Positions 40,092-56,534 of a stretch of DNA of 64,000 nucleotides are shown here, one piece after another (within the stretch, counting starts at the first letter, position 1; every line of letters begins with the position of its first letter). The position numbers and the translations under genes were made by a program. Origin of the DNA: an uncultured Oscillospiraceae bacterium. GTDB lineage: Bacteria; Bacillota; Clostridia; Oscillospirales; Oscillospiraceae. Below the pieces are notes generated by a model, which was given only the letters and a program-made list of their open reading frames with translations, had not been told where the DNA came from and did no database searches. The stretch lies in contig CALWOA010000057.1 in assembly GCA_944382965.1 (NCBI GenBank), forward strand, positions 26,249 through 90,248, written 5' to 3'.

Positions 40092-40345
40092 GTTTTCTAC
40101 TCCTTTTCAAAAAGAAATGCCCTGAACGCCAAAGCGTTCAGGGCGAAAATTACACTTTCCGCGGTACCACCTGAATTCCCTTCCGGGCACTTGACAGCTA
40201 TAACGGGCAGACCCGTACCGTCTTAATCCATTCAGACGATCCGCTCCGGGGCGACCATCCGCTTCCTACCGTATGCCCTCTCACCAACCGGGCACTCTCT
40301 GAACGACACGGATAGCGAAACCTCCCCATCTACGCATTTACCAGG
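40092..40345 (-). ncRNA. T-box leader of valS with terminator/antiterminator
   Basis: Minus strand. The diagnostic T-box AGGTGGTACCGCGG is at 40159-40172. The intrinsic terminator stem GCCCTGAACGC/GCGTTCAGGGC (40119-40144) follows, then TTTCTTTTT. Upstream, Stem I shows the conserved CAGAGAGTG and GGTTGGTG elements (about 40280-40312). In the 3' side of Stem I the sequence ATGGTCGCCCC offers GTC as a valine specifier codon, agreeing with valS. Uncharged tRNA-Val should bind and favour antitermination. The region up to the glycosyltransferase promoter contains no coding frame. Confidence 0.92.
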
Positions 40346-46410: not shown

Positions 46411-46614
46411 ATGTTTTATTATGATAAAAAATTACAGTACCCAGTCAAAATTGCAAAGCCCAATCCTCGGTTAGCATCAATTATCCTTTCCCAGTATGGT
46501 GGGCCGGATGGAGAGTTAGGCGCATCCTTACGCTATTTATCCCAGCGCTACGCTATGCCCTTTGATGAACTGAAAGGTTTGCTTACCGATATCGGTACAG
46601 AGGGGGCATCATGA
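46411..46614 (+). pseudogene. Truncated CotJC (manganese-catalase-like spore coat protein)
   Basis: 67 residues from ATG 46411 (GGAGG site in the end of cotJAB). The N-terminus FYYDKKLQYPVKIAKPNPRLA and ILSQYGGPDGELGASLRYLSQRYAMP, then LLTDIGTE, matches the start of CotJC. CotJC is about 190 residues and normally continues EFAHLEM with the metal ligands. Here the frame ends GTE-Gly-Ala-Ser-stop, so two thirds of the protein, including most ligands of the di-manganese site, are missing. Downstream sequence shows no recognisable remainder. It is probably inactive as a catalase, but the peptide could still be made. Confidence 0.75.
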
Positions 46615-46639
46615 CACCCGCCAGGTTGGCGGATGCTGG

Positions 46640-46800
46640 TCATGGAACCACTTCCATGCTCAAAATGGCTTTGAGCGCATTGAGGCACTCCTGAGCAGCA
46701 TCGATACGCGCATGCTGACAAATTAAACTCTTCAGGTCTGCCCCATGTAAGAGAAACAGGTTCTTTCCTTTTCCCGAAAAAAAGTTATGATACAAAGTGA
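46640..46800 (-). pseudogene. Remnant of an unidentified minus-strand gene
   Basis: Minus-strand frame ending at 46640 with about 50 residues of protein-like sequence: GKNLFLLHGADLKSLICQH followed by RIDAAQECLNALKAIL. The composition and amphipathic helix pattern look like the C-terminus of a real protein, but there is no start codon with a ribosome site. The frame runs into the sigma factor regulatory region. It fills the 248-base gap between truncated cotJC and the first ECF operon and probably marks a rearrangement. Confidence 0.3.
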
Positions 46801-46818
46801 GATTGTCGAAATGGATTC

Positions 46819-46825
46819 CGTCTAT
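46819..46825 (+). promoter_or_regulatory. ECF-type -10 element CGTCTAT before the first sigma factor
   Basis: CGTCTAT followed by CAGGGTGA. The same CGyyTAT...AG.GTGA pattern precedes the other two sigma genes. The CATGCAA upstream half seen in those is not evident here. Confidence 0.45.
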
Positions 46826-46862
46826 CAGGGTGAGGAATGAAATACAAGTGAGGTGAATCCAA

Positions 46863-47417
46863 ATGGATGACAGCAAAATCATAGAACTGTTCTTCCTTAG
46901 AAACGAAGACGCTATTCGCCATACCCACGATATCTACGGAAGGCGGCTCTTTATCTTGGCAGATAACATCGTGAAAGACGATCAGGACGCAGAAGAGAGC
47001 GTCAACGATACCTACATGAAGGCCTGGGATACGATTCCTCCCCAGAAGCCCACACATTTTTTTGCGTATCTGGCGAAAATTTGTCGGAATTTCGCTCTGG
47101 ATAAGCTGGATTGGAAGCATGCCGCCAAGCGAAATGCAGAGGTTGTCAGTTTGACTCAGGAAATGGAATTGTGTATTCCGGATGCGACTCAAACCCGAAA
47201 CATGGAAGCAAAAGAATTGGGACGGATTCTAGATGCTTTCTTGAGAACGCTGTCCGATGAAAATCAGCTGGTTTTTCTTCGGCGGTACTGGTTTGTTGAT
47301 ACCATTGCCGAAATTGCGGCCCGATACAACATCAGCGAAAGTGCCGTGAATATGCGTCTGAACCGGACGCGATCCAAACTTCGAGAATATCTTGCAAAGG
47401 AGGGAATTCGCGTATGA
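46863..47417 (+). CDS. ECF-type RNA polymerase sigma factor (operon 1)
   Basis: 184 residues with only sigma regions 2 and 4, the ECF architecture. Region 2: LADNIVKDDQDAEESVNDTYMKAWDTIPP. Region 4: LRRYWFVDTIAEIAARYNISESAVNMRLNRTRSKLREYL, with the recognition helix around ISESAVNMRLNRT. GAGGTG precedes the ATG. The stop overlaps the start of the membrane sensor gene (ATGA), so sigma and presumptive anti-sigma are translationally coupled. It is paralogous to the sigma factors at 49887 and 55503, but more divergent in the middle. Confidence 0.92.
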   Translation: MDDSKIIELFFLRNEDAIRHTHDIYGRRLFILADNIVKDDQDAEESVNDTYMKAWDTIPPQKPTHFFAYLAKICRNFALDKLDWKHAAKRNAEVVSLTQEMELCIPDATQTRNMEAKELGRILDAFLRTLSDENQLVFLRRYWFVDTIAEIAARYNISESAVNMRLNRTRSKLREYLAKEGIRV

Positions 47418-49606
47418 ACGGAAAAGACATCCTTTTGGGCCTGAAATATATTGGAGATGACCTGGTTGAAAAAGCAGAATACAGCCAATTTCCAGAAACA
47501 GCAAAAAAACGGCTCAGCATCCGCAAACCCATGTTGATTGCTGCCATTGTTGCACTAACGCTTCTGCTAGTAGGCTGTGCTGTGGTTTACCTGCTGAGTA
47601 TACAGGGAATCAAACTGGGAGATCGGCTGATTACCTATGATGTGTTACACTATGACCCTCTGACAGGAAAGGATATTGCCCCTGCGGAAATAAAAACCGA
47701 AACACAGCAGATCCTGACTCTGGCAGGGCTGAGTGGTAGCCCAGCATCTCAGGCCGCCCGGGAATGGTATGCATTCCTGGAAAGTTATGACCCCGACAAG
47801 GAAATTAAAAAATCTGTATGGGGCAGCGAACCGGAATTCCCGGAAGAATATAATGGCTATGGGTTGTACACCCAGGAAATGAAGGACAAGCTGGATGAGA
47901 TTCTGACAAAATATGATCTGAAACTCCGCGGAAAACAGGTGGAATTCCAAAACAGCAAATTACTGTTACAGGCACTGGGGATGGAAACGGTGCTGAACCC
48001 TGGCAGTAAGGCCAAGATGCGGGTTGGCTACGGAGTTTACTACGAAAGCGGGAATCTGGACCTGGATTTTGAAATCACACTTCCCGGTGAGAATGGTAGT
48101 GAACCAGAAAAGACGACTGGCGTTCTGTACTACCGCCCAAAAGACTGCTTTATCCCAGATACCGCTGTCCTCACAGATGCCCAGTGGGAAGAGTGGAACT
48201 ATACCACTGCTTCCGGTGACAAGGTACTGATCATTCGCTCTGATGATGCAGGTTCTGCCTGGATTTTCAGCGACACGGTAAACTATACTGCCTCTTTACG
48301 TCTGGATATCATTCGCGGGATCTATGAGGAAACAGAAAACGGTACACCGGTAGCCAAATTTGACTTGATGGGCAAGGAACAGATGGAACAAGTAGCCGAT
48401 GCCATTGATTTCTCCCTGGAGCCGAAACTGGTGGAAGGGTGGGAAACGCTGTCAGACGATGCCGTTCCTGCTGGAAAGGCGATCAATGGGTATCGCATCG
48501 AACCGGTATCTGCTTTTACCGATGGCTATGCTTATCGGATTATCCTGCGCGTCACCGCACCGAAAGGCGTGGCGCTGACAGACCCGGAAGATCATACAGC
48601 CGGAATCGCCCCCGGTAACGGAGTATGGGGAAGCTGTGTCGAAGACGGCGACGGCAAGCTAAATACCTGCCACTTTATCCTGTCTGACTACATAGACCCC
48701 CAGCGTCTTTCCCCAGAGGAAGGGATGCCTTTTTACGAAGGCATGATCATTCCGATCTACTGGGAAGACATGTATTACAGTTACATTGACCTTGAGAAAA
48801 GCGAAGAGGTTGAAACCCTGCTCACCGAGGGAACCTGGAAATTCGATGTCCCGCTGAACGACGCCGATACCCGGCAGATCGAACTGCTGACCCATCCCAT
48901 CACCGCCCAGGCCAGTATCGGCTGGGGGATGGATGGAACGGATGCGCTGGAAGAATTGGAGCTCACCTCCCTGAAAATTCGCTCTATGGGAATTTCTGAA
49001 ACCAGTGGGGAACAAAATGGTGACTTCTTCTATTTCAACGGACAGTGCTCCTATGTGGTGATGAAAGATGGCACCAAGGTGGAATTTCTCTACGGGCTCT
49101 TTAATCAGCCCATTGACCTGGATCAGGTGGCCTATGTGCAGCTGGCGGATCAGACCATCATCCCCATGCCGGGCGTGGATGAAGCGGAGGTCAAGCGGAT
49201 TTCCGAAGCCATGCCCACGGAACCCCCAGAACCGGAGATCCCGGTATTTGAAGACGGGATAGAACTGGTGACGGAACCGGTAACCCTGCAAAGCCTGGCT
49301 GGCTATGCCAACGATCCCTCCGGAGACATGGTGCCGCTGTATGAATACTTCACCCTGACTTCCTTTGTTCTGCACCCGGAGGGAGCCGTTGCGTTGGATA
49401 GTCGAGCTTTGGAAAGACCAGAGACGGAAATTCAGGTGGTAATGCAAGATGGCAGCCAGATCCTGCTGACCAACAGCGGCTGCGGACGCAACAATGGTGT
49501 TAATTTCAGCACTTTCACGTCAGAAGCAACAATTGACCTATCGAAGCTAAATTATCTCTTGCTTCCTGATGGCACAAAGCTGACCGTTCCAGCTTCTTCC
49601 AAATAG
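47414..49606 (+). CDS. Membrane sensor / putative anti-sigma protein (operon 1)
   Basis: 730 residues. A 38-residue cytoplasmic N-terminus, short for an anti-sigma domain, precedes one membrane helix (39-61, LIAAIVALTLLLVGCAVVYLL) and a 670-residue extracytoplasmic region. The ESYDPDK and YGLYTQEMKDKLDEILTKYDLKL segments are shared with the sensor of operon 3. The second half contains two beta-rich DUF4179-like stretches and a Pro/Glu linker (EAMPTEPPEPEIPVFEDG). It presumably holds the ECF sigma factor at the membrane until an unknown outside signal arrives. It ends at a terminator. Confidence 0.8.
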   Translation: MNGKDILLGLKYIGDDLVEKAEYSQFPETAKKRLSIRKPMLIAAIVALTLLLVGCAVVYLLSIQGIKLGDRLITYDVLHYDPLTGKDIAPAEIKTETQQILTLAGLSGSPASQAAREWYAFLESYDPDKEIKKSVWGSEPEFPEEYNGYGLYTQEMKDKLDEILTKYDLKLRGKQVEFQNSKLLLQALGMETVLNPGSKAKMRVGYGVYYESGNLDLDFEITLPGENGSEPEKTTGVLYYRPKDCFIPDTAVLTDAQWEEWNYTTASGDKVLIIRSDDAGSAWIFSDTVNYTASLRLDIIRGIYEETENGTPVAKFDLMGKEQMEQVADAIDFSLEPKLVEGWETLSDDAVPAGKAINGYRIEPVSAFTDGYAYRIILRVTAPKGVALTDPEDHTAGIAPGNGVWGSCVEDGDGKLNTCHFILSDYIDPQRLSPEEGMPFYEGMIIPIYWEDMYYSYIDLEKSEEVETLLTEGTWKFDVPLNDADTRQIELLTHPITAQASIGWGMDGTDALEELELTSLKIRSMGISETSGEQNGDFFYFNGQCSYVVMKDGTKVEFLYGLFNQPIDLDQVAYVQLADQTIIPMPGVDEAEVKRISEAMPTEPPEPEIPVFEDGIELVTEPVTLQSLAGYANDPSGDMVPLYEYFTLTSFVLHPEGAVALDSRALERPETEIQVVMQDGSQILLTNSGCGRNNGVNFSTFTSEATIDLSKLNYLLLPDGTKLTVPASSK

Positions 49607-49669
49607 AAAAAACAGAATCAGCTACAATGTTCCTGAGTTTCATGACAAAGTTGTGCTGACAATTCAGAT

Positions 49670-49710
49670 GAAAACGGTATGGAGATGTTCATGCCGTTTT
49701 CTTTCTTTTC
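49670..49710 (+). terminator. Rho-independent terminator of ECF operon 1
   Basis: AAAACGGTAT (49671-49680) pairs with ATGCCGTTTT (49691-49700) with one imperfect pair, then CTTTCTTTT. Confidence 0.75.
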
Positions 49711-49813
49711 ACCGCATGCTTATCTGCATCGTCAGATCGTTTGTTGTCTATTCCCGCTCCATCTTTCATGCATGATTTCTTTTTCTGAAAAAATATGATA
49801 AAATTTGAAATAT

Positions 49814-49844
49814 CATGCAACCGATTTTGATGTACTCCGTTTAT
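49814..49844 (+). promoter_or_regulatory. ECF-type promoter of operon 2
   Basis: CATGCAAC (49814-49821), 16 bp, CGTTTAT (49838-49844), then AAGAGTGA. The same arrangement occurs on the minus strand before the sigma gene of operon 3. It probably directs autoregulated transcription by the encoded sigma factor. Confidence 0.6.
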
Positions 49845-49886
49845 AAGAGTGAAAGGCCCGAAGTGAAAAAGGAGGATTCCCTACAT

Positions 49887-50444
49887 ATGGAAGATACTCA
49901 GATCATTGATTTATACTTTGCCCGGTCGGAACAGGCCATTCAGGAGACAGATACCAAGTACGGCGGCTATTGCTACAGCATTGCGTATAACATTCTGACC
50001 AATCAGGAGGACGCGGAAGAAAGCGTCAGCGATACGTACCTTTCTGCCTGGAACGCCATACCGCCCCGGCGGCCTTCCCTACTGGCGGCGTTTTTAGGAA
50101 AGATTACCCGGAATATTTCCTTGGATCGCTGGCGGAAATACCGAGCCTTCAAACGTGGCGGGGGGCAGGTAGAGATTGCCCTGGAGGAACTCAGGGACTG
50201 CGTCAGCGGAGAAGAAAGTGCCGAAGAAAAGGCCATTCGCCGGGAAATCCTGGCCAGTCTGAACAATTTCTTGGAAACGCTGAATGACTTGGAACGCAAT
50301 ATCTTTCTGTGCCGGTACTGGTATTTGGATTCGATAGCAGAAATTGCGGAAAAGTCCGGCTTCTCTGACAGCAAGGTAAAATCCATGCTCCATCGCATCC
50401 GCAAACGGCTCAACGCCCACTTGGAAAAGGAGGGCCTGCGATGA
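49887..50444 (+). CDS. ECF-type RNA polymerase sigma factor (operon 2)
   Basis: 185 residues from ATG 49887, 11 bases after AAAGGAGG; this start aligns with the third sigma factor. Region 2: YSIAYNILTNQEDAEESVSDTYLSAWNAIPPRRP. Region 4: IFLCRYWYLDSIAEIAEKSGFSDSKVKSMLHRIRKRL. A basic KYRAFKRGGGQ linker joins them. Strong identity to the sigma at 55503-56054 over the whole length shows recent duplication. It is coupled to the sensor gene by an ATGA overlap. Confidence 0.93.
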   Translation: MEDTQIIDLYFARSEQAIQETDTKYGGYCYSIAYNILTNQEDAEESVSDTYLSAWNAIPPRRPSLLAAFLGKITRNISLDRWRKYRAFKRGGGQVEIALEELRDCVSGEESAEEKAIRREILASLNNFLETLNDLERNIFLCRYWYLDSIAEIAEKSGFSDSKVKSMLHRIRKRLNAHLEKEGLR

Positions 50445-51853
50445 CAAGTCAGGAACTACTGTTTATTTTAAGCGGCGTAAAAAATCAGTATATTCTGGAA
50501 GCCAAAGATTTTTGGCAAAAGAAAGAAAAGAAAAAACCGGGTTCTTCTGGCAGCCATCCACCAGCCGAGTCTCTTCCCTTCTCCCCCAGAAAAGAACCGC
50601 ACCATTACCAATCCAGAGAAAACGGGAAAAGAAAAAAGAAAAAATGGGGAAAATTCTTCATTCTGTCCGCAGCAGTAGGGCTGCTGCTGGCTACCTTAGC
50701 TGGACACGGTTTCTTTACCCAGTGGACCGATTACTTTGCCACATTCCTGGTAAAAACACGGGAGCAGAACCAATATACCCAGCCGATTGATGAAGCAAAG
50801 CGATTGCAGACGCAGACAGAACCAACACTGAGTGCGACAATTGATTCTCCGAGAGATATGGATCGAATTTTGGCCTACACCACATACTTTCATGAGTGGA
50901 TGCCTGGTTCTTTTGGATCTGATGCCTATAGTCCGTACTATGAAATGAAATTTCTGGACCTCAATGCGGATGGGCGGGATGAGATGGTCATCTGGGAATC
51001 CACCACCGGCGTGGTCTATGAAGTTGTGACCATCGATAATGGTCAGACCGTACCGTTATACAGCGATTCCGTTTTTAAGATGGATGAGCACGAAGAAGAA
51101 ATGTACCTTTGCCAGGATAACACTCTGGAGAAGTTCTATTCCAATCCTCTGCAGGGGCAGCAGCTACAGGAATATTACCAGGTGGAAGATCAAACGTTGG
51201 TCATGGTAGAGTGTATTATGCAGAGCCAAGATAATCAGTGGTATAGGAGCAAAGCCGGCGGAGCATCCGATGGGATGTGGACAGAAATCAGTGAATCTGA
51301 GGCACAGGCGGTACAAAACAACCATGTTCGCATCGAGGTCAAGCAGGTATCCCCTATCTCCGAGGAAACAAAAGCACGCGACAAGGCTGAGGCAGAGCAA
51401 CGGCTGCAACTTGTGCTGAAGGATCAATACCCCATTCACTTTTATGAAGAAATTGAAGACAATACCCTGAGCGGGTTTTGTGCAAAAGAATCGGAACAAC
51501 TGGGATTTTCTGTAGAAATTACCCAGTACGCATTACTGGATATGGATGGAGACAGTATTCCTGAGTGCGTTGTGGATTTCCGGTTTGGTGAAAATGAGCA
51601 GGTGATGTGTCTGGTTCTCAAACATCTGCAAAACGATGAAGTGCTGGCAACGGGATTTTACTACCGTCAGATGTATCGGCTGAAATCTGACGGCACCTTC
51701 CGCGCTTCTGGAAGCGAGGATACCGACGGCTGGTACAGACTGGTATGGGAAAATATGTCCTGGGTCATGGAGCGAGTTCCTGAGGAAGAAAACTGTGAAA
51801 GCAAGCCCGATGCTCCCTGGCAGATCTATGAATCAGCACAGGTTCAAGAATAA
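50441..51853 (+). CDS. Membrane sensor / putative anti-sigma protein with EF-hand-like loops (operon 2)
   Basis: 470 residues. The cytoplasmic N-terminus (1-70) is unusually basic (two Lys-rich runs). One membrane helix lies at 71-90. The extracytoplasmic region carries two calcium-loop-like motifs, DLNADGRDEM (173-182) and DMDGDSIPEC (367-376), of the type DxDxDG found in FG-GAP or dockerin-like repeats. The WTEISESEAQAVQNNHVRIEVK segment has a counterpart in the operon 3 sensor. It likely regulates the co-encoded sigma factor in response to an extracellular ligand, possibly Ca2+; this is inference. Confidence 0.78.
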   Translation: MTSQELLFILSGVKNQYILEAKDFWQKKEKKKPGSSGSHPPAESLPFSPRKEPHHYQSRENGKRKKKKWGKFFILSAAVGLLLATLAGHGFFTQWTDYFATFLVKTREQNQYTQPIDEAKRLQTQTEPTLSATIDSPRDMDRILAYTTYFHEWMPGSFGSDAYSPYYEMKFLDLNADGRDEMVIWESTTGVVYEVVTIDNGQTVPLYSDSVFKMDEHEEEMYLCQDNTLEKFYSNPLQGQQLQEYYQVEDQTLVMVECIMQSQDNQWYRSKAGGASDGMWTEISESEAQAVQNNHVRIEVKQVSPISEETKARDKAEAEQRLQLVLKDQYPIHFYEEIEDNTLSGFCAKESEQLGFSVEITQYALLDMDGDSIPECVVDFRFGENEQVMCLVLKHLQNDEVLATGFYYRQMYRLKSDGTFRASGSEDTDGWYRLVWENMSWVMERVPEEENCESKPDAPWQIYESAQVQE

Positions 51854-52203
51854 ACGCTGTATCATTGTGTTTTCGTAGTAAACAGCAGGAGTCAGCCCTT
51901 TGAACAGCACCCCACCTGTTAGACAGCATGCTAACAGGTGGGGTGATTTATGATGACGAAGGAAAATCAGCACATTTTCCGTTTTCTTTTGAAAGGATGC
52001 CACATTTGCCCCTCCATTGTTCAGATTTCGCCCAATATATCAGGGAGCATCTGCTTTTGCAAGTTAGGAGCAGGTATTTTCAAATGTACTCAGGTGCACA
52101 ATTCCAACTATTCATTCCCATATGTTTGCTGTTTCTGGCATATTTCTCTTTTCAGCTGTCACAAAAAAGGCCTTGAAAATATAATGGATGTAGGAGGTGC
52201 AAC
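51854..52203. other. Intergenic stretch holding direct repeat copy A
   Basis: 350 bases between sensor 2 and the ZIP gene. It holds repeat copy A (annotated separately). An 80-90-codon open frame through it is not credible as a gene, being Cys/Phe-rich with no ribosome site. The last 60 bases lead to the ZIP gene's GGAGGTG site. Confidence 0.5.
51908..52033 (+). repeat. Direct repeat copy A with terminal hairpin
   Basis: It begins with a perfect 15-bp hairpin (CACCCCACCTGTTAG, 51908-51922 with 51931-51945). Then comes about 85 bases closely matching 53258-53346, e.g. TCAGCACAT-TTCCGTTTTC and TTTTGAAA, ending in TTCAGATTTC. The two copies flank the ZIP transporter in the same orientation. No gene product is recognised. 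Confidence 0.7.
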
Positions 52204-53007
52204 ATGGATAATTATCTTATAATGGCATTTGTGGCGACACTGGGGACCTGGTTCGTAACAGCACTGGGCGCAGCTACCGTCATCTTTTTCACATCCCCCG
52301 ATCCAAAAGGGTTGAACATCATGCTTGGATTTGCTTCCGGCGTTATGATCGCAGCCAGCTTCTGGTCTTTGCTTCAGCCAGCAATCGAACGTGCAGAGGC
52401 CTCATCGAACCTGCCCGCATATCTGGTAACAACGGTAGGCTTTTTGTTCGGTGCATTGTTTATGTGGGCATCCGATAAAGTGGTTTCCTTTGCAAGAAGA
52501 GAAGCAGCCAGCACACTGGGCAAACCAAATGAACGCCTGCACCGCATTATCATGCTGATTCTTTCCATCACCCTTCATAACATCCCGGAAGGTCTGGCAG
52601 TGGGCGTTGCATTTGGTGCATTGCAGGGCAGCAACTATACCGCAGAAAACTTGATGGGGGCAATTTCCGTAGCGGTTGGCATCGGTTTGCAGAATTTCCC
52701 CGAAGGTGCAGCAGTTTCTGTTCCGCTCCGGAGAGAAGGATATTCCAGAAAGAAAAGCTTTCTAATCGGTCAAGCTTCCGGCATTGTAGAACCAATTTCC
52801 GGTGTCGTAGGGGCATTACTGGTTGTTTACGTAGAAGCGATTCTGCCTTATGCTTTGTCCTTTGCGGCCGGAGCAATGATCTTGGTTGCCGTGCATGAGT
52901 TGATTCCGGAATGCCAGAGGAATCAGCAGACGCAGCCATATTTCGCCACAATGGGAATCGTCCTTGGATTTGCCGTTATGATGTTGCTGGATGTTATGCT
53001 GGGTTAA
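52204..53007 (+). CDS. ZIP family divalent metal transporter
   Basis: 267 residues with eight membrane segments. The two metal-binding helices are canonical: TLHNIPEGLAVGVAFGALQG (TM4, about 120-140) and GLQNFPEGAAVSVPLRREG (TM5, about 160-178). A short His-poor loop with basic residues (ASDKVVSFARREAAS) lies between TM3 and TM4. It is a ZupT/GufA-type importer of zinc, iron or manganese; selectivity cannot be read from sequence. GGAGGTG precedes the ATG. It lies between two direct repeats inside the ECF cluster, suggesting acquisition with them. Confidence 0.92.
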   Translation: MDNYLIMAFVATLGTWFVTALGAATVIFFTSPDPKGLNIMLGFASGVMIAASFWSLLQPAIERAEASSNLPAYLVTTVGFLFGALFMWASDKVVSFARREAASTLGKPNERLHRIIMLILSITLHNIPEGLAVGVAFGALQGSNYTAENLMGAISVAVGIGLQNFPEGAAVSVPLRREGYSRKKSFLIGQASGIVEPISGVVGALLVVYVEAILPYALSFAAGAMILVAVHELIPECQRNQQTQPYFATMGIVLGFAVMMLLDVMLG

Positions 53008-53030
53008 TTCGGGAAAAAGTTGAATAATAG

Positions 53031-53174
53031 GTCAATTTCTACTCCTATACGAACGAGGATGGCACAGTAACTTCCTATGCTCTTTGGGAGAATGACGGTT
53101 TTACTTACAGCCTGGCAAGCGCAAACACGACATTTGAACAGTTGTACGCTGATATTCAGACTTTAATGAAGTAA
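53031..53174 (+). pseudogene. C-terminal remnant of an extracytoplasmic (DUF4367-like) protein
   Basis: 48 codons, open to a stop at 53172-53174 and closed by a stop just upstream at 53028. The translation contains VNFYSYTNEDGTVTSYALW, then ENDGFTYSLAS and TTFEQLYADIQTLMK. A Trp-x-x-(D)GF/YxY-(S)LS pattern followed by an amphipathic C-terminal helix is what the ends of DUF4367/anti-sigma-associated proteins look like. There is no start codon or ribosome site, so it is a decayed 3' end, 24 bases after the ZIP gene. Confidence 0.55.
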
Positions 53175-53210
53175 TTTCTCTCATCAAAAAGAATGGTTTA
53201 ATTTAAACTG

Positions 53211-53346
53211 CACCCCATCTGCTAGACAGTACGATATGCTATCTAACAGATGGGGTGGTTTATTATGCTGAAAGAATATCAGCACATATTCCGTTTTCTT
53301 TTGAAAAGATTCTACACTTTCCCATTCTTAGTTCAGATTTCTCCCC
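53211..53346 (+). repeat. Direct repeat copy B with terminal hairpin
   Basis: It begins with an imperfect hairpin CACCCCATCTG...CAGATGGGGTG (53211-53257), followed by the stretch homologous to copy A, including TCAGCACATATTCCG and GTTCAGATTTCTCCCC. Conserved spacing and same orientation as copy A. It lies 135 bases beyond the 3' end of the operon 3 sensor, on which strand the hairpin could also terminate transcription. Confidence 0.7.
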
Positions 53347-53481
53347 AGGAAAATTGGTCAGGGGTGTCCGGTTCTGTACTATTAGAACTGCTCTTTCTCC
53401 AGTTCTGTGCCTCCGGTTCATATCGCAAACAGGTAATCTCCTTCCAGAAATTGAGGCTGGGAATCTACTCAAACCGTCCCT

Positions 53482-55503
53482 CTATCGCAATGGATATTCC
53501 GTAAAGGGTTTCATATTCAAACTCAAGTGCTGGTACGAAGCAATCACCGCCATGGCGTCCTCTTCCCGGACGGTTTTTCCATTCTGACCAGCCTTTGCAT
53601 ATCCCCAGTATAGTGTGATCGGATCACGAACTACTTTTTCAATAAACTCCGGGCCATTTTCGCTGCATCGATAGAAACCGTAATACCGCCCATCATCCGA
53701 CTCATTGTCGCACATCTCCAGAATTCCGCCTTCGCAAATAAAGGATACGCCGTATGTATACTGCTGCAATTCTCCATCCCGAATGGTAAAAATATCCAGG
53801 TCTTCGGTACTATCGCTGAATCGGGGCTGGCGGGTAATCAGTTCCTCGACGCCGTCCCCATTTAAGTCCATCCGCGTATAGGTAAAGTTTTTGGCATTGT
53901 CATAACGCACCAGTGCTTCTGCAACATACTGGGCATAAGGATCGGAATACTCGATATTAGCGGGAGGTTCTCCGAAGCGTTTCAGGGGAAGCCAGCGAAT
54001 TTCGATCCGGGTGTAGGAATTCAGAATGTCCTGGGCTTCTTCCTCCGTTATCAGCTTTGGATTGGTACCATCTTTGGCATGTAAATACCATGCGTCATCT
54101 GAAGAATCGTAGGAAACGCCTGTGATAAAGGAGGCAGATTCCGGTTTTGCCTGGTAGAAGTAATGTTGATACATTCCAATATCTTCACAATAGACTTCAA
54201 ATACATTTCCTTCGCATGGCTGGAAATGTCCGATAAAGACCCCGGTATTGGTAAGATCAAAATACTTGTAAGACTGACCATCCTTGATTGACAGAATATC
54301 CAGAGCGCCGATAATCAATTCCTCAACACCGTCGCCATTAACATCATATAGCACATAGGATAGACCTTCCGGGTTTCGGTCGGTTTCCAAACGGTAATTC
54401 ACAAATTCCTCGTAACCGGCAGTATACATGCTTTCATGTTCTTCACGAGCCGAAGCGATTTCCGCTAAGTATCGGGAACGTGCTTCTGCCTGATAGTTTC
54501 CCACCTGATCCATGGTGGTGGGCTGAGGTTTGACAGACAGATCAAACAGCTCCGCAAATTGCTGCAAAGCAGTCTCGGTCATGGGAACCTGTTTGCCGTC
54601 CACCCAGATCACCGGGTCTAGGTAAATGGAAATAAACGCATCCGGCAAGTCAGCATAAATCCGGGCAGTTACCTCGTTCAGAACCAGAAGTACTTTTTTA
54701 CCGTCTTTGCGGGTATAGTCCCACTGGGTATAGTCGAGGGATTCCAGCATGCCGCTGGTGGCGGGATCGAAATAATCCTTCCGAGAATATCGGTAACTGG
54801 CAAATCCCTGCTCCCATTTCCAGCTTCCCATGTCCATGCTGATTTGCATATTCAGATCAAAGGTTCCCTCTAAATGGAAACCTCCATCCCAATACTCTAC
54901 CTGAACTCCAGGGGTATCATAGACCAATCCATTCAGTCCGAGAGAATTCAGCAGGACACTGTTTTCATAGTAATTGAGCGGGATATAGCTTGACAGCAGC
55001 TTCAGGTTATATTTCTCCACAATCTCATTGAGCTTGTCCACCATTTCCTGACTATAGCAGCCGTATGTAAAATTATAGTTTTCTGGGATATCCCAAGGCG
55101 AGCCGGATTTGGCAGCTAAGTCTGATTCCCCTGCGATTGACTTATCCGGATCGTATGAATTTGTAAAGTCTACCCATTCCGAAAGCGCCTCCATGTTGGT
55201 ACCTTGCACGGAAAGTAGTGTAATAGGCTCCTGGGTTTGCACCGGAATCACATTCCCATGATCGTCATACTCCGTGGGAATATAGAAGCTGTATTCCCCC
55301 ACCTTCATATCCTGCATTCTCAGCACATACACCACCGCGCAGCCCACCAGCATCAGCAACAGCGCAATGAGAGCAGCAATCAGCCATGCCCGACGAAGGG
55401 CGAGCCGTCGAGGTTGGTCTCGGTTTTCCCGGAAATCTCCGGCACTGACCACATAGGTATCCTGTACCCGACCCAGAGCGTTCAGCAAATCCATTCCCTT
55501 CAT
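53482..55503 (-). CDS. Mosaic membrane sensor / putative anti-sigma protein (operon 3)
   Basis: 673 residues from ATG 55503 (GGAGG, TGATG overlap with the sigma stop). The N-terminal 38 residues, membrane helix (39-60, LIAALIALLLMLVGCAVVYVL) and first 330 residues match sensor 1 (NSYDPDKSI, YGCYSQEMVDKLNEIVEKYNLKL). From about residue 340 onward it matches sensor 2: EF-hand-like loops DVNGDGVEEL (387-396) and DLNGDGVEEL (546-555), and the WYLHAKDG...EEEAQDILNSYTRIEI segment. It therefore combines both ectodomain types. Its role is presumed to be signal-dependent control of the co-encoded sigma factor. Confidence 0.8.
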   Translation of the reverse strand: MKGMDLLNALGRVQDTYVVSAGDFRENRDQPRRLALRRAWLIAALIALLLMLVGCAVVYVLRMQDMKVGEYSFYIPTEYDDHGNVIPVQTQEPITLLSVQGTNMEALSEWVDFTNSYDPDKSIAGESDLAAKSGSPWDIPENYNFTYGCYSQEMVDKLNEIVEKYNLKLLSSYIPLNYYENSVLLNSLGLNGLVYDTPGVQVEYWDGGFHLEGTFDLNMQISMDMGSWKWEQGFASYRYSRKDYFDPATSGMLESLDYTQWDYTRKDGKKVLLVLNEVTARIYADLPDAFISIYLDPVIWVDGKQVPMTETALQQFAELFDLSVKPQPTTMDQVGNYQAEARSRYLAEIASAREEHESMYTAGYEEFVNYRLETDRNPEGLSYVLYDVNGDGVEELIIGALDILSIKDGQSYKYFDLTNTGVFIGHFQPCEGNVFEVYCEDIGMYQHYFYQAKPESASFITGVSYDSSDDAWYLHAKDGTNPKLITEEEAQDILNSYTRIEIRWLPLKRFGEPPANIEYSDPYAQYVAEALVRYDNAKNFTYTRMDLNGDGVEELITRQPRFSDSTEDLDIFTIRDGELQQYTYGVSFICEGGILEMCDNESDDGRYYGFYRCSENGPEFIEKVVRDPITLYWGYAKAGQNGKTVREEDAMAVIASYQHLSLNMKPFTEYPLR

Positions 55504-56054
55504 CAATATCCCTCCTGACTGAGCATTTTGCGAAGCTTCCCTCGGGTTCGGTGGAGCATGGATGTTACTTTACTTTCGGTAAAACCGGTGAATTGAGATA
55601 TGGTCTGAATCGAATCTAAGTACCAATACCTGCACAGAAAAACGTTTCGCTCGACTTCCGGCAGATCTTGCAAGAAACGGTTGAGCATCTGCACCAGTTC
55701 TTTGGACTGCAAAGTCGTCTCTGGATCCCCTGTTTCCGCACAAGCGTCCAGTTCTTCCAGAGCCAGAATCATCTCTCCCCCGCCCCGCTTCTGGGCGCTG
55801 AGTTTGCGCCAGCGGTCAATGGAAATATGTCGGGTCAGTTTGGCCAGAAAAGCACGGAGAATATTGGGACGCCGGGGTGGAATGGTGTTCCATGCCTGCA
55901 AATAGGCATCGGATACGCTTTCTTCCGAATCCTCCCGATTGGATAGGATGTTGTAGGCCACGCTGTAGCAGTAGCCGCCGTATTTCCGGTCTGTTTCCAC
56001 AATGGCCTGTTCCGATCTTTGGAAGTATAAGTCCAAAATGTTCTGATCCTCCAA
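55503..56054 (-). CDS. ECF-type RNA polymerase sigma factor (operon 3)
   Basis: 183 residues from TTG 56054. The TTG is six bases after GGAGGTG and gives an N-terminus (LEDQNILDLYFQRSEQA) that aligns exactly with the operon 2 sigma factor; codons further upstream are not needed. Region 2: YSVAYNILSNREDSEESVSDAYLQAWNTIPPRRP. Region 4: LCRYWYLDSIQTISQFTGFTESKVTSMLHRTRGKL. It also shares the basic KLSAQKRGGGE linker with the operon 2 sigma. The stop overlaps the sensor start. Confidence 0.93.
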   Translation of the reverse strand: MEDQNILDLYFQRSEQAIVETDRKYGGYCYSVAYNILSNREDSEESVSDAYLQAWNTIPPRRPNILRAFLAKLTRHISIDRWRKLSAQKRGGGEMILALEELDACAETGDPETTLQSKELVQMLNRFLQDLPEVERNVFLCRYWYLDSIQTISQFTGFTESKVTSMLHRTRGKLRKMLSQEGY

Positions 56055-56103
56055 AAGTACCACCTCCAAGTGTTTTTATTCTATCGCATTGGTTTTCACT
56101 TGT

Positions 56104-56134
56104 ATAGGCGTAAAACAAATGAGAATCTTGCATG
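56104..56134 (-). promoter_or_regulatory. ECF-type promoter of operon 3
   Basis: Minus strand: CATGCAAG (56127-56134), 16 bp, CGCCTAT (56104-56110), then ACAAGTGA. Spacing and both halves match the element at 49814-49844 before operon 2. Confidence 0.6.
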
Positions 56135-56186
56135 TCAGAAAAAACTTTTTTATTTTCCACCTGCTCTTTCCTCACAGAAAAGCAAA

Positions 56187-56222
56187 AGAACGTACTGCCG
56201 AACTGATTTGGCAGTACGTTCT
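56187..56222 (-). terminator. Hairpin facing the ECF operon 3 upstream region
   Basis: A perfect 13-bp stem (AGAACGTACTGCC, 56187-56199 with 56210-56222). On the minus strand it is followed by TTTTGCTTTTC, so it would stop transcripts arriving from the oxidoreductase operon before they enter sigma operon 3. Confidence 0.6.
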
Positions 56223-56279
56223 GTGTTCCATACGAATGACTCGTTCCCGATGTGGGATACTAACCCAGAGGTGATTATT

Positions 56280-56534
56280 GTGGCAAAACAAGGAATGAGC
56301 CGTCCGGATGTAATCCGTGGTCCGAGAAAAGATGTCTCCCCTGTTCCTCAGATTCAGGGCAAAGCCAAAAGTGGAAAGGAAAAAGCAAAGCCTATCATCG
56401 CAGGAACATCTGGCGCAAGCCAAAAGGTGTGGCATGAAAAACCCATATCCAGCGCACATGGAATCATTGATACAGATTTGGCACGGGATAATCTGGAGAA
56501 TGATATTCCGTTTGCAGATTTGCAGGACCTTTAA
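56280..56534 (+). CDS. Small conserved hypothetical protein
   Basis: 84 residues from GTG 56280, preceded by AGAGGTG. It is a Lys/Pro/Gly-rich, probably disordered protein: VAKQGMSRPDVIRG, then PVPQIQGKAKSGKEKAKPI and a C-terminus with alternating acidic residues (LARDNLENDIPFADLQDL). I recall similar uncharacterised clostridial proteins starting MAKQGMxRPD, which supports a real gene, but no function is known. It is flanked by the hairpin at 56187-56222 and the terminator at 56540. Confidence 0.55.
   Translation: MAKQGMSRPDVIRGPRKDVSPVPQIQGKAKSGKEKAKPIIAGTSGASQKVWHEKPISSAHGIIDTDLARDNLENDIPFADLQDL

Follow-up and report, generated by a model that had tools for sequence, protein, structure and literature searches.

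The window, a 64,000-nucleotide (nt) stretch of an uncultured Oscillospiraceae bacterium (GenBank assembly GCA_944382965.1, contig CALWOA010000057.1, positions 26,249 to 90,248), carries two operons for extracytoplasmic function (ECF) sigma factors, sigma1 and sigma2, each with a CATGCAA-type promoter element in front of it. In the family to which they belong, promoter bases were found to vary together with residues of the adjacent sigma factor. Judged from this sequence evidence, each of the two elements is likely to serve its ECF sigma operon as an autoregulatory promoter, with the sigma1 and sigma2 operons wired separately.

The two elements, CATGCAAC-N16-CGTTTAT at 49814-49844 (+) and CATGCAAG-N16-CGCCTAT at 56134-56104 (-), had been reported in an initial annotation, and both are exact and in place. 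The sigma1 promoter consists of a -35 element at 49814..49821 (+), in which base 8 tracks residue 165 of the sigma factor and base 5 tracks residue 166, and a -10 element at 49838..49844 (+), whose bases track residues 80, 76 and 68. In the sigma2 promoter the -35 element (56127..56134, -) and the -10 element (56104..56110, -) were assigned by pattern search and family fit, the latter also by clade comparison. Their description as ECF-type promoters agrees with the family profile: sigma1 has TGCAAC-N16-CGTT and sigma2 the variant TGCAAG-N16-CGCC. The start codon, annotated as about 40 bases away, lies 42 nt past the -10 in sigma1 (ATG at 49887) and 49 nt past it in sigma2 (TTG at 56054). GTGAA follows both elements (49849-49853 and 56099-56095), where a GTGA stretch had been noted; in sigma1 it opens the start-region element GTGAAAGG (49849..49856, +), which lies at a fixed distance from the -10, and the sigma2 counterpart GTGAA (56095..56099, -) was assigned by the family fit and by a TGA column seen after anchoring on -35 and -10. 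An A/T tract at 49797..49806 (+), upstream of the sigma1 -35, may act like an UP element, given the A-then-T enrichment in the family.

The pattern CATGCAA-N16..18-CGYYTAT occurs twice in the window against 0.01 expected, and none of 100 dinucleotide shuffles reached two. We searched the genome (2,629,646 bases in 60 contigs, 90.8% complete) with the last base dropped. Both matches were these two sites, but the backwards control also gave two; the genome-wide count alone is therefore unremarkable, and it is the placement before two sigma genes that makes it notable. Of the 161 accepted family promoters, 19 contain CATGCAA, and this genome accounts for three of those 19.

The sigma family and its shared promoter

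Sigma1 (49887..50444, +; 185 amino acids (aa), start taken from the ribosome site and paralogue alignment) and sigma2 (55503..56054, -; 183 aa, identified by Pfam, TIGR02937 and paralogue alignment) share the window with a third ECF family member, sigma3 (46863..47417, +), which is 41% identical to sigma1 and was identified by Pfam, TIGR02937 and genome search. All three score above cut-off with TIGR02937 and with the Pfam models Sigma70_r2 and Sigma70_r4_2 (the latter by 0.1 bit in sigma2). With regions 2 and 4 only, a short linker and 183 to 185 aa, they are ECF (group IV) sigma factors. Among the 25 best NCBIfam matches for each, no equivalog model scored above cut-off. Passages of PMC8103513 characterize ECF systems by a two-domain sigma factor, an AAC-type -35, a CGT-type -10, positive autoregulation and a downstream anti-sigma gene.

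A search of the genome with sigma1 gives 24 matching places at E ≤ 0.1, of which 19, sigma1 and sigma2 included, are full-length at E ≤ 1e-20; the other 18 family members show 35 to 67% identity to sigma1. Sigma1 and sigma2 had been called close paralogues. They are indeed 62% identical, but they do not form a special pair, because three other members are closer to sigma1 (67, 66 and 65%). Family counts range from 0 to 19 per genome across 61 genomes of the genus (this one included; a draw from a larger group), and this genome has the highest. The nearest named records to sigma1 are an Oscillospiraceae metagenome-assembled genome (MAG) at 96% and Pseudoflavonifractor sp. MSJ-30 and an Eubacteriales MAG at 82% each; relatives in Candidatus Faecousia faecavium show 56 to 66% identity. 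At locus L043 (G000:C7:91660-91767), elsewhere in the genome, a good promoter (TTGTATATAGGTGAAGG) precedes 36 residues that match the beginning of the sigma family; this is probably a sigma gene that was truncated but still has its promoter.

Each sigma gene is followed by a partner gene, taken as the longest frame in the neighborhood of the sigma stop, which it overlaps by 4 nt (ATGA) in 19 of 19 own copies. A strongly hydrophobic stretch starts at residue 35 to 72 in all 19 partners (first 140 residues scanned), and most partners open with a segment resembling LLxxIGxxxxxYIxxA (by eye); their lengths are very varied. The sigma1 partner (50441..51853, +; 470 aa, hydrophobic stretch near residue 72), placed by the ATGA overlap, is a putative anti-sigma factor or sensor and matches FG-GAP_3 of Pfam below cut-off. 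An FG-GAP repeat is above cut-off in the sigma2 partner (53482..55506, -; 674 aa, hydrophobic stretch near residue 41), and the sigma3 partner (47414..49606, +; 730 aa, hydrophobic stretch near residue 40) has no Pfam domain. Searches of these three partners against Pfam and NCBIfam found no known anti-sigma domain and no match to an RsgI model.

For the promoter set, 188 sigma genes were collected: 19 own, 80 named loci (the best 80 of 566 confirmed), 29 genus loci and 60 further genus matches (among the matches listed). Five divergent or partial own matches (L042-L046) were excluded, and 179 genes were left after duplicate removal; L068 and L181, which share their upstream and lie on contigs of equal length, are apparently one gene counted twice, and without L181 the tables shift by one count. 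A two-block fit accepted a promoter (posterior > 0.9 and score > 3) in 161 of the 179 upstreams. The family promoter is TGyAAC, 16-17 nt, CGnnTAtA and then a start element rGTGAArGG; the gap between the -35 block and the -10/start block is 14 or 15 nt in 96% of the weight. An A-then-T tract lies 17 to 8 nt upstream of the -35 block in the accepted promoters. Sigma3 has a related, weaker promoter with a different -35, AAAGTGAGA ... CGTCTAT ... GTGAG, at 46794..46834 (+) (AAAGTGAGA, 15 nt, CCGTCTATCAGGGTGAG; posterior 0.99, score 6.2).

On the other side of the balance, 18 of the 179 upstreams gave no accepted promoter, and the iterative fit also partly fits controls (reversed 0.73, shuffled 0.36, real 0.95). 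The fit alone is thus permissive, and three stricter checks were therefore made. A held-out matrix, trained on 145 promoters of other genomes, was run on 374,802 bases holding 13 of the 19 own sigma genes. Its eight best matches (17.9-31.4 bits) are all sigma promoters, and the best other sites score 16.8 bits (a site lacking GTGAA) and then 14.0. The remaining five of the 13 sigma promoters (14.2, 13.7, 12.6, 11.7 and 8.6 bits) fall among non-sigma sites, which again counts against the reading; the 8.6-bit promoter is that of sigma3, under several non-sigma sites. Scores were also taken for 426 ATG-frame upstreams in the sample, with real and spurious frames and sigma genes pooled. Their 99th percentile is 10.9 bits, and 14 of the 19 own sigma upstreams reach at least 11.0, the lower ones being L036, L039 (sigma3), L035, L040 and L037. 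When promoters were anchored on -35 and -10 only, 174 of 179 were placed confidently; the triplet TGA stands at one column in 116 of the 174 and in no more than six at any other column examined.

Coupling of sigma residues to promoter bases

The 161 sigma-promoter pairs (effective number 126) were analyzed by corrected mutual information over 4810 residue-base couplings. The top couplings are D80 with base 2 of the -10 block, K165 with -35 base 8, S166 with -35 base 5, N76 with -10 base 4 and R83 with base 1; A68 with base 5 is slightly lower. D80 goes with C at -10 base 2 (84/86), N80 with T (39/46) and K80 or H80 with G (10/10). K165 has C at -35 base 8 in 78 of 80 promoters and G in none. 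At -35 base 5, S166 is found with C (77/86) and M166 or V166 with T (46/48). N76 has T at -10 base 4 in 85 of 97 cases and C in none, R76 has A in 28 of 29, and T68 has G at base 5 in 47 of 53. Kinship was controlled with 80 phylogenetically independent pairs, drawn on a tree from which residues 60-95 and 151-176 were left out (pass threshold about 1e-5). D80/base 2 (p 2e-11), S166/base 6 (4e-8), K165/base 8 (1.5e-7), S166/base 5 (9.5e-7) and A68/base 5 (5e-6) passed. In ECF structures, as described in parts of PMC8103513 and PMC6372665, the flipped -10 base sits in loop L3 and the -35 is recognized by region 4, and the covarying regions agree with this. The autoregulation assumed in the initial annotation is thereby supported indirectly, by covariation between each sigma factor and its own gene's promoter; most likely each regulator would switch on its own gene via its own promoter.

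It had also been proposed that sigma1 and sigma2 cross-activate, forming one regulon with two inputs, and this part is not supported. The two promoters differ at -35 bases 8 and 9 and at bases 1, 4 and 5 of the -10 core block. Residues 165 and 76, which go with bases 8 and 9 of the -35 and base 4 of the -10, differ between the sigma factors (K/T at 165, N/H at 76), with D80, S166, A68, R83 and H169 the same in both. The five members of the sigma1 clade have CGT(T/A)TAT with N76 and K165, and the eight members of the sigma2 clade have CGCCTAT with H76 and T165 (each count including the sigma factor itself). L141, the next relative of sigma2 (68%), has H76 and T165 with CGTCTAT. Promoters and the residues that read them have thus changed in step, and these comparisons predict that sigma1 and sigma2 probably do not cross-activate; activation of the sigma2 promoter by sigma1 is the least expected.

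A code was then scored that was built on 131 promoters, with this genome and relatives of 80% or more left out. For the 16 own sigma-promoter pairs the trace exceeds all 20000 permutations. At up to one mismatch, the sigma1 pattern TGCAAC-N16-CGTTTAT has one match in the genome, before its own gene (control 0), and the sigma2 element matches its own gene plus three one-mismatch sites (control 2).

Several of these results weigh against separate, autoregulated wiring. R83/base 1 (0.0008) and N76/base 4 (0.0019) fail correction for 4810 tests in the independent pairs. Residue 7 passes with two bases (1e-6 and 2e-6) and residue 178 with base 2 (8e-6); both lie outside the reading regions and are unexplained. 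The -10 bases 1 and 5 differ between sigma1 and sigma2 although their main tracked residues, 83 and 68, are the same, which is not fully explained; loop residues 64, 65 and 67 differ between the two. In the sigma2 clade T165 stands with G at -35 base 8 in three promoters, T in four and C in one, so sigma2 may tolerate variation there. In the held-out code the cognate promoter ranks first in 8 of 16 rows, the worst being L034 (9th; by eye its promoter seems misplaced by the fit) and L038 (10th). Sigma1 gives its own promoter only -1.0, which places it fifth of 16, T at -10 base 5 being an uncommon partner of A68.

Among the alternatives, recognition by sigma1 and sigma2 of each other's promoter, as one regulon with two inputs, survives best and is still unlikely. 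The two promoters have CATGCAA and the -10 frame in common, both sigma factors carry S166 and D80, which track shared bases, and the proteins are close in overall identity, as given above. T165 and H76 occur with several bases in the family, and sigma2 may thus read the sigma1 promoter weakly and one way; the code may also misjudge the sigma1 promoter, given how poorly it fits. Against these points stand cross-pairing scores of -8.1 (sigma1 on the sigma2 promoter) and -7.0 (sigma2 on the sigma1 promoter), compared with +7.0 for sigma2 and -1.0 for sigma1 on their cognates, the absence of K165 with G (0/80) and of N76 with C (0/97), and -10 base 4, which is C in 8 of 8 sigma2-clade promoters and T in 5 of 5 sigma1-clade ones.

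Descent alone might also make the promoters alike: duplicates would keep similar upstream DNA, and the covariation would be phylogeny. Paralogues and promoters do share ancestry, the -10 columns and residues both follow clades, and residue 7 is coupled from outside the reading regions. The strongest couplings nevertheless persist when independent pairs are compared on a tree that excludes the reading regions, and they fall at sites that ECF structures predict (in parts of PMC8103513 and PMC6372665), and the promoter elements are conserved while most upstream flank columns vary; we regard this explanation as quite improbable. That the element is an operator of a common regulator or a piece of a housekeeping promoter is the least credible of all. 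GTGAA, it is true, shows no significant dependence on sigma residues, but an unrelated regulator would not be expected to leave -35 and -10 bases coupled to residues of the sigma factor encoded next to them. A scan of 46600-56400 for sigma70-type promoters found 10 sites where shuffled sequence averaged 13.6, with none at 49.8 kb and one 9/12 site (minus strand, 56106-56078) overlapping the sigma2 promoter region.

In the separately wired scheme that we prefer, each operon would comprise the sigma factor and the overlapping gene of a membrane-anchored partner, which most likely keeps the sigma factor at the membrane until an outside signal frees it. The freed sigma factor would read its own -35 through the recognition helix of region 4.2 and its own -10 through region 2.4 and loop L3, and would then transcribe its own operon, a step backed by the covariation. 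Such wiring seems to hold for many, not all, of the 19 members.

Start element, further targets and neighboring genes

Exact GTGAA is present in 87 of the 161 promoters and in 11 of 16 own ones. We tentatively propose that rGTGAArGG is a third shared element, whose distance from the -10 is fixed and which overlaps the transcript start, and that it serves as a constant module of some 19 separately wired circuits. It would be overlaid on the sigma-specific parts and would probably be read by the RNA polymerase core, or act in start-site choice or promoter escape, and not be read by sigma; this is the weakest step of the scheme. No convincing tracking of GTGAA by sigma residues was seen: in the independent pairs, residue 41 with one GTGAA column has p 2e-5, not significant after correction. 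With the numbering of E. coli RpoE, counted from the flipped base of the -10, the T of the element would be -1 and the next G +1, giving a pyrimidine-purine start with a purine-rich beginning, the simplest way to read the element. Parts of PMC6372665 and PMC10911233 describe a core recognition element in which T+1 and G+2 are read by the beta subunit. Here T and G lie 9 and 10 nt past the flipped -10 base, against 11 and 12 in our reading of the structure numbering, so the register is off by two, and reading of the start element by the beta subunit is a possible hypothesis only.

Other explanations of the start element were examined and rejected. A leaderless mini-gene starting at GTG was not supported; the GTG frame has a median of 17 codons against 32.5 in frame 2 (102 promoters with GTG), and distances to the sigma start show no period of three (53, 50 and 58 of 161). 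Nor do the leaders appear to form a hairpin hiding the ribosome site (mean folding z 0.18 in the 135 leaders, out of 161, with a length of 35-90 nt). A general role of GTGAA in marking starts across the genome was not supported either, the in-register pattern giving 20 matches against 17 in the backwards control; 9 of the 20 lie at ECF sigma genes or fragments. One base off register the count is 13 (control 34).

For targets beyond the sigma genes, a sequence model was built from 35 promoters, and 150 of 485 first-look genome candidates were scored. Of 18 genome matches, the 16 with E < 0.4 lie before ECF sigma genes (in one case the fragment L043) and two at E 1.5 do not; 6 of the 16 best matches are training sequences. 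In 20 other genomes of the genus the model gave 64 matches at E ≤ 0.05, in 16 genomes. Fourteen adjoin known sigma matches. For 37 of the remaining 50, an ECF sigma frame (hidden Markov model E ≤ 1.2e-5) lies no more than 1.1 kb downstream, and for 13 there is none. By eye (with Pfam on two of the three DUF4349 proteins), these 13 precede DUF4349 lipoproteins (3), small membrane proteins (2), a 47-aa peptide, two membrane proteins, a hydrolase, a permease-like protein, a sigma-less partner-like gene, one gene resembling another ECF sigma and one unclear. Exact GTGAA occurs in five of these (L295, L307, L312, L321 and L337); the start element is thus not confined to sigma mRNAs.

The sole DUF4349-type gene found in this genome, L341 (G000:C13:74021-74935; one in-frame TAA in the match), has CGCAACC ... 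TCGAGTA ... GTAGAAGG upstream, by eye like the sigma promoter of L033. A lipoprotein gene with an ECF-like promoter suggests that a family sigma may act in trans, a further point against purely autoregulatory circuits. The idea that such promoters stand only before sigma genes was dropped in view of this gene, which the model missed, and of the 13 of 64 matches before other genes elsewhere. At L319 (G038:C22) we observed an ECF-type promoter followed by a short partner-like peptide (LLELMAEAEDAYVLSA) with no sigma gene, and then a membrane protein.

Between the sigma1 and sigma2 operons, 52204-53007 (+) encodes a 267-aa membrane protein, which we take to resemble a ZIP-type metal transporter. 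By eye, similar stretches flank this gene at about 51908-52010 and 53212-53330, each with an inverted repeat CACCCCA-CTG-TAGACAG ... AACAG-TGGGGTG and then similar text ATCAGCACAT-TTCCGTTTTCTTTTGAAA; the first copy also scored as terminator-like. It looks as if the gene were bracketed by a repeat or a small mobile unit. An open stretch with no start at 53040-53174 (+) (YSYTNEDGTVTSYALWENDGFTYSLASANTTFEQLYADIQTLMK) looks by eye like the C-terminal remnant of a larger protein, perhaps a decayed membrane-partner gene. A T-box leader (104.8 bits) was found at 40136-40341 (-).

Relation to known systems

Among the papers listed in searches of open-licence PubMed Central literature, we found none on this sigma family or on a GTGAA start element, with no search aimed at the letters GTGAA; the novelty of both is accordingly provisional. 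About 19 related sigma factors with matched promoters in one cell would be a natural set for testing how paralogues avoid cross-talk, and the shared start element is a testable addition to ECF promoter anatomy. A passage of PMC7438776 states that, in 2020, the consensus sequences of the three ECF sigma factors of C. difficile remained to be identified; a clostridial code would therefore be of practical use.

The best solved-structure match to the family is B. subtilis SigW, whose counterparts of residues 165, 76 and 80 are K, N and D (alignment read by eye). The SigW -10 is CGTA, with the predicted C and T. Its -35, ATTGAAACCTTT, as given in a passage of PMC8103513, has the C that K165 predicts. 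One difference is at the equivalent of 166, where SigW has T; in the present family such a T goes with T at -35 base 5, whereas the SigW -35 has A. In the features covered by that passage, SigW-type autoregulated operons of B. subtilis with a membrane anti-sigma factor are alike in the two-domain sigma factor, the promoter type and the downstream partner gene. They differ from the system described here, which has about 19 close paralogues in a 2.6 Mb genome, the rGTGAArGG start element and, in the three partners searched, no recognizable anti-sigma domain.

The SigI/RsgI systems of cellulolytic clostridia, as outlined in parts of PMC6056542, have many paralogues, a sigma gene beside that of a membrane partner, promoters that combine a constant part with one for specificity, and limited cross-talk. 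The likeness lies in the many paralogues per cell, the sigma gene beside its membrane partner and the constant and specificity parts of the promoter. SigI differs, by the same account, in an extra C-terminal domain of its own and in a specificity part upstream of an A-tract in the -35. The sigma factors here match ECF region 2 and 4 models only and do not belong to SigI/RsgI. Finally, the ECF code of Todor et al. (2020), which we know by its description in part of PMC11588781, pairs ECF sigma factors with putative promoters and holds that a few amino acid/nucleotide pairs set specificity; the code found here operates inside one family, including paralogues in one cell.

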